Below are positions 10,043-12,128 of a DNA stretch of 12,128 nucleotides, piece after piece. The stretch's first letter is position 1. The number at the start of each line of letters is the position of its first letter. A model generated the notes under the pieces. It was given only the letters and a program-made list of their open reading frames with translations, searched no databases and was not told the origin of the DNA. The stretch spans positions 1 through 12,128 of the forward strand of contig JAIRYY010000257.1 in the NCBI GenBank assembly GCA_031267485.1. Direction: 5' to 3'. Source of the stretch: Tannerella sp. (GTDB lineage Bacteria > Bacteroidota > Bacteroidia > Bacteroidales > Tannerellaceae). The position numbers and the translations under genes are program-made.

Positions 10043-11608
10043 TTATTTCTCCTTTTCCCGCGGCACATATTCATAAGCTCCTATTGACGGCCCGTGTTCG
10101 CCGGTAAGCCGGTTAACGCCCAGGCGGTCGACGGGATACAGTTCCGCGACGGCGCGGTCGGCCTTTCCTATGACGGAGGATTCATCATCCGGGCGAAAAT
10201 CAAACACATAATCATATTTGCCGTCCCTGTTTATCCCGCTGCTTTTCATGTATTTCGGGCTTTCGGCAAACAGAACCTCGACGAAACGCCCGTTATCCGT
10301 CCTTTTGGTCTTGACGGCGCAGTGGTTGAAGCGGTAATTGAACGCTTCGTCGTGGCCGCCGACATAATCTTCGCCGGTCAGGAAACGGATTTCGCCGCCG
10401 TATTCCGTCGACAAATCATCCTGCATGTTGCCGTCGATTATGCAGTTGTCGAACCGCGCCTGCTGCAGCGGGAACGTCTGCCCGTCGCCCTCCTCCCCGC
10501 CGGGGACATGATCCGACAGGGTAAGGCACTTCTCAAACCGGCTGGAGAGGTTGCTTATAAAGTTGCCCGGCATGTAATTGGCCATTGTGCAGTGTGAGAA
10601 CTGATATTTCCCGCCCGCAAGCATGACGAGGTACCGGCCGGCATTGCCAAACTCCGTATTGGAGGCTTCGATATGGCAGTTCACGCTCCACAGCGCATTG
10701 CCGTCCATGTTCTTTATCTGCGAGTTGCTTACGGTCATCTTTTTCCGGCCGGTCTCCGACGGTTCAAAGACAAGCCCCGAAATGCCGTTCCTTATCGACG
10801 CGTAATGGAGTTCATTGTCAAAGCTCGAGGCGCGGAAAAACAGCCCGTCCCACTGCGCCGGTACGTTATCGTACGAGATTGAGACGGAATAATGATTCAG
10901 CCGGTCGCCGCGGAACGTGACCGGCCTGTCCCGCGTGCCGTTCACTTTCAGCGTGCCGTCGACCAGCCACCTGGCCTTGCCGTGCATGTAAAAGGCGACG
11001 CCCGGTTCGATGCTGACCGTCACCCCCTCCGGTATCATGACGCTGTCGTAAACCAGGAAAGGCCTTTCCGCCGTAAGCGTCGCGTCGCCCGCAAACGTCG
11101 TCCCGCCCCTCATGATATGCGCGTTCTGTCCGTACGCTTCGAGTTTGACGGACTGCACGGCGCCGTTCGTGACGAACACAATCGAGTCGTATATGACGAA
11201 CGGCGTGTTTTCGCCGTTCGGGTCGACCGTCACCTCGACCATCACGTAAAGGCTGTCGTTTTTCCAGACAGGGATATTGCTGAACAAATCCCCCCTGCGC
11301 CCGTCGACGTTGATACGGAAATTACTTTCCCGCCCGTTCGCCAGCGCGATTCGCTCAATATTCAGCGCCTCGCCGTTCCGGTTGTATATCATGAAATAGC
11401 GGGTCATGGAGCCGACCGTCGTAAACACCGTGTCGAAAGACAGCGTGTCGGTCGAAAACGAGAGCCGGTGATTGGGGCTGACGGAATAATTGTCCATATC
11501 GCTGCACCCCGCCATCATCGCGATTATCAGGCCTGCCGCCCATACCCCCAGCGCCCGTCGGCGCCCGTCAAACCGTAACCCCCGTATGATAAAGTTCTTC
11601 TCCTGCAT
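10043..11608 (-). CDS. Putative lipoprotein with right-handed beta-helix (pectate-lyase-like) repeats
   Basis: The 521-residue form from ATG 11608 has a basic n-region, a hydrophobic stretch and the lipobox AMMAGC with Cys35 followed by SDMD, consistent with an outer-membrane lipoprotein. An upstream in-frame ATG at 11650 would give 535 aa with an implausibly long n-region, and a possible promoter element lies between the two, so 11608 is preferred. Residues about 45-160 form a beta-rich domain (LSFDTVFTTVG..., then FRINVDG). The following roughly 250 residues contain short repeated strand-turn units (PGVAFYMHG, DGTLKVNG, HYASIRNG, SNSQIKNMDGNA, SHCTMANY) typical of right-handed parallel beta-helices. 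The protein closes with the SIGAYEY motif common at the ends of such lipoproteins. No polysaccharide lyase catalytic site is recognisable, so binding or scaffolding is as likely as catalysis. It is the first gene of the operon. Confidence 0.85.
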   Translation of the reverse strand: MQEKNFIIRGLRFDGRRRALGVWAAGLIIAMMAGCSDMDNYSVSPNHRLSFSTDTLSFDTVFTTVGSMTRYFMIYNRNGEALNIERIALANGRESNFRINVDGRRGDLFSNIPVWKNDSLYVMVEVTVDPNGENTPFVIYDSIVFVTNGAVQSVKLEAYGQNAHIMRGGTTFAGDATLTAERPFLVYDSVMIPEGVTVSIEPGVAFYMHGKARWLVDGTLKVNGTRDRPVTFRGDRLNHYSVSISYDNVPAQWDGLFFRASSFDNELHYASIRNGISGLVFEPSETGRKKMTVSNSQIKNMDGNALWSVNCHIEASNTEFGNAGRYLVMLAGGKYQFSHCTMANYMPGNFISNLSSRFEKCLTLSDHVPGGEEGDGQTFPLQQARFDNCIIDGNMQDDLSTEYGGEIRFLTGEDYVGGHDEAFNYRFNHCAVKTKRTDNGRFVEVLFAESPKYMKSSGINRDGKYDYVFDFRPDDESSVIGKADRAVAELYPVDRLGVNRLTGEHGPSIGAYEYVPREKEK

Positions 11609-11634
11609 GTGTGAATCCAATTTTTTTACAGTAT

Positions 11635-11642
11635 TAAAGATA
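11635..11642 (-). promoter_or_regulatory. Weak candidate -7 element for the envelope operon
   Basis: On the minus strand this reads TATCTTTA, seven of eight positions of TAnnTTTG. It would start transcription near 11628, 20 nt before ATG 11608, and would exclude ATG 11650 as a start. There is no clear -33 element. This is a suggestion from position and partial match only. Confidence 0.3.
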
Positions 11643-11650
11643 ACGCGCAT

Positions 11651-11762
11651 ATCCCCGGATTATTGTACGGGCGATTTTCCCGCCGTCCCGCCCCCGTAAT
11701 CGCAAACCCTCCCGGCCTCGCCGGTGACGGGTCCGGTGTTGCGGATGCAAAAAATATTTCTT
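11651..11762. other. GC-rich intergenic stretch upstream of the operon
   Basis: No gene is visible here. It contains a short CCGGC-CTC-GCCGG inverted repeat (11713-11725) and two direct copies of CCGGTG 12 bp apart (11721-11726 and 11733-11738). It then switches abruptly to T-rich sequence at about 11747. On the minus strand TATTTTTTG (around 11750) resembles a -7 element with one extra base. None of these is strong enough to assign a function. Confidence 0.3.
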
Positions 11763-11815
11763 TTTTCTTCTTTTTTTGATACGCTTTTTGTCATTTTCTT
11801 CCTTTTTTGATACGC
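11763..11815 (+). repeat. Two tandem 22-bp direct repeats (shared core TTTTTTGATACGC), 31 bp apart
   Basis: Copy 1 is 11763-11784 and copy 2 is 11794-11815. They agree at 21 of 22 positions, differing only at position 9 (T versus C). Both begin with TTTTCTTC and end with TTTTTTGATACGC. The start-to-start distance of 31 bp is close to three helical turns, so proteins bound to both copies would face the same side of the DNA. They lie about 190-245 bp upstream of the predicted sigma-54 transcription start, a usual distance for activator (enhancer) sites. The repeat is seen directly; the binding role is inferred. Confidence 0.8.
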
Positions 11816-11819
11816 CCGC

Positions 11820-11844
11820 ACAATATTTTACGGCAAAATATTGT
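11820..11844. promoter_or_regulatory. 25-bp perfect palindrome, operator-like
   Basis: Arm ACAATATTTT (11820-11829) and its exact reverse complement AAAATATTGT (11835-11844) flank the spacer ACGGC. It overlaps the place where the -33 element of the following TATATTTG promoter would be, which suits a repressor or activator site. Because seven T follow the second arm start (11844-11850), it could also act as a weak AT-rich intrinsic terminator on the plus strand. The symmetry is certain, the role is not. Confidence 0.6.
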
Positions 11845-11862
11845 TTTTTTGAAATATGTGTT

Positions 11863-11870
11863 TATATTTG
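11863..11870 (+). promoter_or_regulatory. Bacteroides-type -7 promoter element, rightward
   Basis: TATATTTG is a perfect TAnnTTTG match. ATTG at 11840-11843, a 3/4 match to the -33 TTTG, ends 19 nt before it, which is the usual spacing. Transcription would start near 11877 and run rightward through the sigma-54 promoter region toward a gene outside the window. Confidence 0.55.
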
Positions 11871-11980
11871 CAGGCGAAATTCACAAGAAGTTCATGGAAA
11901 ACGAAGCATAATAATATGAATATTTTCTCGCCATCTCACATTCCGTATAACTCCCGTCCAATCCTTTGGATGAGAGGTTT

Positions 11981-11996
11981 TGGCACGATTCTTGCA
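11981..11996 (+). promoter_or_regulatory. Sigma-54 (RpoN) -24/-12 promoter
   Basis: TGGCACG-N4-TTGCA is a complete match to the sigma-54 core consensus TGGCACG-N4-TTGCW. The invariant GG (11982-11983) and GC (11994-11995) are separated by exactly 10 nt. The predicted start of transcription is about 12 nt beyond the GC, near 12007, pointing right. Sigma-54 promoters need an ATPase activator bound upstream; the tandem repeats and the palindrome are candidate sites. The controlled gene begins beyond the window. The match is seen directly; activity is inferred from the known consensus. Confidence 0.75.
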
Positions 11997-12020
11997 GAGA
12001 GAGAGAGAGAGAGAGAGAGA
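11996..12020 (+). repeat. (AG)12 dinucleotide microsatellite covering the predicted transcription start
   Basis: Twelve and a half uninterrupted AG units run from the last base of the sigma-54 -12 element to the A of an ATG at 12020. Perfect dinucleotide tracts this long are rare in bacterial genomes and are prone to slipped-strand length change. Here a length change would alter the initially transcribed sequence and leader, and the frame of any ORF crossing it. Confidence 0.9.
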
Positions 12021-12046
12021 TGGGCAGGTTTACCGCTTAGCTTCAC

Positions 12047-12059
12047 GCGCGCCGCGCGC
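12047..12059. repeat. GCGCGC-C-GCGCGC palindrome
   Basis: A perfect 13-nt palindrome of alternating G and C sits 40-52 nt downstream of the predicted sigma-54 start, inside otherwise AT-rich sequence. The spacer of one base is too short for a closed hairpin with full pairing. It could be a protein site or part of a leader structure. The 60 nt that follow contain no start codon that I can assign to a gene. Confidence 0.4.
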
Positions 12060-12128
12060 ATCATAGGGAAAACTTCCAAAAAAAACAAATATCATTTAAG
12101 AGAATTTTCAATCCATCCGGGTAAATTT

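Follow-up and report, generated by a model that had tools for sequence, protein, structure and literature searches.

SSR contingency loci are exemplified by the opa genes of Neisseria, with their CTCTT repeats, and by the lic and mod genes of Haemophilus, with tetranucleotide repeats. In Bacteroides fragilis, phase variation of SusC/SusD is reportedly brought about by invertible promoters, a finding attributed to Nakayama-Imaohji in 2009, and the tetQ gene of Bacteroides is subject to translational control through a leader peptide. Moreover, sigma-54 promoters carry the core consensus TGGCAC-N5-TTGC, with the transcription start (+1) located ~12 nt past the GC of the -12 element. Frame transitions, phase variation, and coupling are dealt with in PMC3711429, where mod is mentioned as well, and a 2025 review on phase variation (PMC11868660) cites DNA inversion for Bacteroides. 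In the open-licence PMC papers, no description of a leader element built around an AG tract was found.

The 12,128 nt analysed here (the window) make up contig C245 in a MAG of 2.73 Mb that is 77% complete and consists of 351 contigs. The forward strand of the window, to which the parts of the element described next belong, carries a perfect 25-nt A(GA)12 tract at 11996..12020, exactly the AG microsatellite that the earlier note had described. Directly 5' of it lies TGGCACGATTCTTGC at 11981..11995, a full match to the sigma-54 core, and the predicted +1 falls within the tract, as had also been proposed. Approximately 125–126 nt upstream of the tract, a predicted housekeeping-type promoter, P1, occupies 11841..11870 (TTG at 11841-11843, 19 nt, and TATATTTG at 11863-11870). 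Downstream of P1, the ATG at 11916 (-80 from the tract) opens a frame that continues into the repeat. This leader ORF, partial with 71 codons (11916..12128), reads the sigma-54 match together with the first tract base as GTILA and the tract as (ER)n, and remains open to the contig end. In the post-tract leader (12021..12128), frame 0 is open to the end of the contig, while frames 1 and 2 stop at +43 and +17, respectively, and the tract length of the window leads into frame 0, the long frame and supposed ON register. Only 108 nt of contig follow the tract, so that the gene being served lies outside the window. In addition, a perfect 10-nt palindrome, ACAATATTTT/AAAATATTGT, operator-like in appearance, spans 11820-11844 and overlaps the -33 element of P1. 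No match to a known RNA family was obtained at the Rfam gathering score for the window, L078, L085, and L081.

This arrangement resembles SSR contingency loci in that a tandem tract, with a unit that is not a multiple of 3, precedes surface-protein genes, occurs in several copies per genome, and is present in all registers. The tract is far longer than expected by chance, its length varies between paralogs and near relatives with conserved flanks, its register sets a long or a short exit frame in silico, and seven other copies in the same genome precede a Pfam-confirmed SusC gene. It departs from such loci in that the tract is located in a separate leader ORF rather than in the surface protein, the repeat is an AG dinucleotide in Bacteroidales, and the leader frame ends near, or passes, the gene's own start. 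As with the invertible promoters of B. fragilis, the systems varied would be SusC/SusD outer-membrane systems; here, however, the variable part is a repeat tract, and inverted repeats within 11500-12128 amount to two 10-nt pairs only, the contig ending 108 nt past the tract. The parallel to tetQ is that translation of a short leader would set downstream expression, and very short ORFs (M-D-K, for example) are located close to the stop of the long frame, but the leader frame would be gated by a mutable tract instead of a ligand. With sigma-54 promoters, the element shares the core hexamers, the spacing, the trailing A, and an RpoN domain encoded in the genome, although the predicted site lies within a leader ORF that has a housekeeping-type promoter upstream. 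We hold with fair confidence that the tract is a hypermutable frame gate of a translated leader before surface-protein genes, one that probably acts by translational coupling or polarity, and that the element is likely phase-variable.

In its own genome, the block at 11839..12020, comprising promoter, leader ORF, motif, and tract, has six other matches of ~180 bases or more with 77–89% identity (on C79, C8, C24, C345, C124, and C312). The MAG holds at least 19 AG-tract elements, 17 from a general scan plus C41 and C99, two contigs that end 10 nt into a TTGC-AG tract, and nine exact TTGC+AG tracts are present. Among 116 genomes, AG tracts are found in 33 of the 41 from the genus and in 9 of the 75 outside it, and sigma-54-linked AG tracts in 16 of 41 and 0 of 75, with a reversed control of 0. 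A scan of a species-genome collection returned at least 115 AG-tract stretches; among the matches listed, 78 of 80 loci bear Bacteroidales names (Tannerella sp., Prevotellaceae, Dysgonamonadaceae, and 'Bacteroidales bacterium') and 2 are Pseudomonadota. The isolate codes of the matched loci presumably resemble those of termite-gut MAGs. Such MAGs are the subject of PMC9137090. One genome of another family than that of the window, G147, has 20 AG-tract copies, and up to 51 AG tracts occur in a single genome. Given the many paralogs in many genomes, the tract is not an isolated assembly quirk, a concern that the earlier note had raised.

Elements were assigned to class A when a sigma-54 core precedes the tract, to class B when TTAATTAAC-N8-GTTGGTTA.. 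does, to class C for a form specific to G027, and to class D for the G147 copies of the other family, and the elements used comprise 96 A, 24 B, 11 C, 17 D, and 20 others. L103 and L135 (both Pseudomonadota), L216, and L245 were left out, as was the second L110 tract, so that 138 of 143 elements remain; 30 elements added later gave 168, including the second tract of L288, which is one and the same as the dropped L110 tract. Clusters follow a blastn rule devised for this analysis, and most tests count elements rather than clusters, related elements not being independent samples. Tract length ranges from 15 to 89 nt in 120 class A and B elements. The class C loci (L206-L224) carry ACGCGCGTAGCGCGT inverted repeats before the tract, and no housekeeping promoter box was found in them. 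In viral contigs, the class A pattern had 0 matches, and no plasmid copies of the leader were found. Contig ends cut through the tract in 10 of the 168 elements and follow it by no more than 110 nt in 27, as though assembly were interrupted by tracts of mixed length or by repeats.

The promoter and leader recur across most of these classes. The motif TAnnTTTG, which we take to be the -7 element of the Bacteroidota housekeeping promoter, lies upstream of 79/93 class A, 23/24 class B, and 17/17 class D elements, compared with 13.1, 4.1, and 2.7 in shuffles, and of 0/10 class C elements. For the extended form TTG-N18-21-TAnnTTTG, the upstream regions of class A contain it in 56 of 93 cases against 1.8 in shuffles, those of class B in 10 of 24 against 0.5, and those of class D in 11 of 17 against 0.2. 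An ATG whose frame is open into the tract is found in 37.0 of 43 leader groups (41 sequence clusters of the 138 elements, two of them split by class), against 12.0 expected from dinucleotide shuffles. This ATG is located at -68 to -92 in 73 of the 79 class A elements having one and at -77 in all 18 G147 copies with enough sequence. It keeps to one frame in 18 of the 22 class A clusters having such an ATG; at T-preceded tracts, a frame bias is partly forced, because one frame meets TAG at the junction, and the class A figure is free of this junction. Of the 28 leaders in the largest cluster, 27 preserve the frame despite starts at -68, -80, or -89. Constraint on the peptide is weak or absent, depending on the cluster, with amino-acid change near neutral in two of five leader clusters, a comparison that covers only ATGs in one frame. 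A conserved RNA hairpin before the tract was considered as well, and no claim is made for it, the mean z being only -0.75 across 33 class A group representatives; the class B representative folds well, with a z of -3.6.

After the tract, one of the three frames is usually long and the others are short. One frame is open for more than 120 nt in 88% of 66 class A elements and in all 20 class B elements, compared with 31% and 38% in the respective shuffles. The median stops in the three frames are 4.5, 35, and 172.5 nt in class A (10, 37, and 88 in shuffles), 14, 92, and 271.5 nt in class B (12.5, 42, and 101), and 10, 14, and 642.5 nt in 16 G147 copies (12.5, 41, and 94). Moreover, one frame exceeds 270 nt in all 16 G147 copies with enough sequence, against 2.9% in shuffles, while the other two stop by 20 nt in 94% of copies; the long frame stays open to the end of the fetched DNA, and into the downstream gene, in six copies and ends at an ATGA overlap in three. 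Class C (G027), without the housekeeping-type promoter, has a weaker pattern. The proximity of the long-frame stop to the next start is partial: the stop falls within -20 to +40 nt of a downstream ATG in 28 of 89 elements (mean 4.7 and maximum 9 in 40 shuffles), and 61 of the 89 stops do not adjoin a gene start. A CTATG start lies near the long-frame stop in 30 of 97 cases, compared with ~5 from background, 17 of the 30 opening only an ORF of 1–8 codons and 10 a long one.

A protein encoded by the post-tract long frame was considered and ruled out, as its substitutions look neutral. Because amino-acid change is near neutral in the long frame (synonymous fraction 0.23, and 29 of 249 indels being multiples of 3) and in the leader clusters mentioned, at most the openness of the leader and long frame is constrained, not the peptide. 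In the fused G147 frames that were inspected, a signal-peptide-like start lies inside the frame, which makes coupling or anti-polarity a likelier role than an N-terminal extension, we infer. As a separate observation, minisatellites of 21 bp, in 5 to 20 copies, occur inside the long frame of 9 of 141 post-tract leaders (L071, L075, L076, L086, L091, L112, L170, L226, and L232), and the frame is kept across them because the unit is a multiple of 3. Repeats of other periods are also located inside some long frames.

Tract length varies between paralogs and near relatives, which is the level at which variation was seen. All three pairs with near-identical flanks on both sides differ in tract length (33/81, 51/35, and 30/62 nt), and lengths modulo 3 are spread evenly, 30/30/29 in class A and 6/6/5 in class D. 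The tracts of the window, C79, and C345 measure 25, 67, and 31 nt and all exit into the same long frame, a 1-nt deletion in the leader being compensated downstream. With 35 ambiguous A/B/x/y elements set aside, the long register is occupied in 16 of 71 classifiable ones, below one third.

Taken as a working model, these features would fit together as follows. Transcription, judging from motif and spacing, would start from the housekeeping-type promoter ~125 nt upstream, and ribosomes would initiate at the short leader ORF, at ATG 11916 in the window, and read into the AG tract. Every frame of the tract would be read as Glu-Arg, and the frame of exit would be set by tract length modulo 3; two frames would usually stop soon, and the third would run for ~100 to >700 nt, to or into the start of the downstream gene, be it SusC/SusD, an FG-GAP protein, or another. 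Since any change by one AG unit (2 nt) shifts the register, replication slippage in living populations would switch the gene between a coupled, expressed state and an uncoupled, silent one, and the output would presumably come from translational coupling or from relief of Rho polarity, with the long register as the putative ON state. A sigma-54-type promoter that overlaps the end of the leader in class A elements, the window's among them, could supply a second, leader-independent transcript. A reading-frame gate is favoured because a leader ORF enters the tract and one long and two short frames follow it, also where the sigma-54 motif is absent. Counting against the gate are the near-neutral amino-acid change, the 61 long-frame stops away from a gene start, the weaker pattern of class C, and the occupation of the long register in fewer than one third of the classifiable A/B/x/y elements.

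The earlier note had placed the switch elsewhere, at the sigma-54 +1, where slippage would alter the initially transcribed sequence and the leader length and, thereby, transcription or message stability. As for the motif itself, TGGCAC-N5-TTGC occurs once in the window against 0.02 expected, and TGGCAYR-N4-TTGC has 18 sites in the genome, 11 of them adjoining AG tracts, with a remainder of 7 that about equals the reversed control (8). At position -9, a G is present in 91 of the 96 class A elements, though this is usually a third codon position and is not fixed by the search pattern; among the matches listed, 31 of 36 C-preceded tracts carry TGGCAYN5TTGC by manual comparison, and of the remaining 5, 3 are one base off the core. 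The leader frame reads through the motif as GTILA or GTIFA, and because of the -9 G and of the full core in the tracts listed, the motif looks conserved at the nucleotide level, beyond a codon accident. The spacing is likewise perfect, and a sigma-54 DNA-binding domain is encoded in 56 of 61 genomes, including the window's own (G000, with one PF04552 match). Five PF00158 (activator domain) matches in G000 also fit, but the domain is unspecific, having matched 14 of 14 control genomes, and the count is thus an upper bound. The presence of RpoN was rejected as a discriminator, nearly all relatives having it. Against a shifted start as the main mechanism is the recurrence of tract and leader without the motif in classes B and D, together with a housekeeping-type promoter upstream in all main classes except C; moreover, the conservation of the leader ORF and the frame asymmetry after the tract are left unexplained. 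Sigma-54 as the sole explanation is ruled out by the same two classes. It appears improbable, on this evidence, that slippage acts through the sigma-54 start, and a frame gate is the most likely mechanism; what survives of the original proposal is that an element driven by a repeat, and probably phase-variable, lies at a motif of the sigma-54 type in a Bacteroidota genome. Whether the class A motif works as a second promoter we regard as about an even chance. A GTGTAAA..TTTACAC-type palindrome, a candidate activator site, lies upstream of two tract-less sigma-54-like sites, L328 (C140) and L331 (C231), which may be chance sites, as tract-less sites are about as many as in the reversed control; the palindrome was not seen by eye at the window element, which also counts against the sigma-54 start.

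The registers of G147 bear on another mechanism, in which slippage of ribosomes or of RNA polymerase on the AG tract would bring a fixed fraction of messages into the long frame with the DNA unchanged. In that assembly, 0 of 16 classifiable copies are in the long frame and 13 are in one OFF register, a sharing that would rarely be expected from random switching at one third and that counts against a frame gate. This bias is the best argument for programmed slippage, since in these 13 copies, with tracts of 15–25 nt, the actual frame stands at one and the same -1-type offset from the long frame (L274 was worked out by hand, and the other 15 copies were counted). However, all three registers are used in class A (12, 20, and 17 of 49 classifiable elements), and near-identical copies differ by up to 48 nt; programmed slippage is, on balance, quite improbable. 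Lastly, the tract might be a product of neutral expansion, or a recombination joint at which leaders and promoters are swapped without any switching of expression. L137 and L146, from two MAGs, have a downstream gene in common (98.9% over 1992 nt) and match right up to the tract, with unrelated leaders upstream, and leaders seem, from this one clear case, to be exchanged at the tract. On the other hand, a leader ORF and frame asymmetry in leader families unlike one another, and again in another taxonomic family, are not what neutral expansion predicts, and an account with no role in expression is highly improbable to our mind.

The purine-rich tract had also been taken for a Shine-Dalgarno-like sequence directly before an ATG. 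Such an ATG is present in the window but is not conserved among the elements (19 of 89 in class A, 8 of 23 in class B, and 0 of 17 in class D), and the gene starts that could be placed lie 100–884 nt past the tract (89 elements); this role was therefore discarded.

The genes downstream are largely those of the cell surface in the window's own genome, where eight copies have >1 kb of downstream sequence and seven of the eight precede a SusC gene, all seven confirmed by Pfam (Plug, CarbopepD_reg_2), as were all three SusD partners tested; the eighth copy, C46, faces a gene on the opposite strand. Among the matches listed, 29 of 81 database loci have a SusC-like ORF within 2 kb, 29, including the two Pseudomonadota loci, have none over at least 700 bp, and 23 end too soon to judge. 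Other downstream genes, named by reading the sequences, are TetR and efflux genes, an ECF-like sigma factor, and lipoproteins, and a NusG-like gene with polysaccharide synthesis was identified by Pfam. Of the six G147 copies in which the long frame enters the gene, three were tested, and FG-GAP repeats were confirmed in all three.

If the frame gate is true, replication slippage would let these Bacteroidales vary their nutrient receptors and adhesin-like proteins combinatorially, in addition to the DNA inversions known in Bacteroides. A gate in the leader would spare the surface protein itself and could be placed before any operon, and switching could thus be predicted from tract length modulo 3 in genomes and reads. 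A broader proposition, for and against which we find the balance even, is that of a new contingency-locus architecture, in which a translated leader, itself dispensable and swappable, carries a hypermutable tract and gates many surface operons through translational coupling. This architecture would be spread over no fewer than two and perhaps three Bacteroidales families (f1, f31, and, on the strength of three copies, f20), with as many AG tracts per genome as given above; promoter/leader modules would be traded at the tract, and one class would have an overlapping sigma-54 promoter as an override. Besides AG, tracts of the CA dinucleotide occur in 15 of 41 genomes searched (25 from the genus and 16 others), including G000, G001, G002, G011, G013, and G129; they may represent another repeat type within this system, and at L278 the tract is compound, (AC)n(AG)n.
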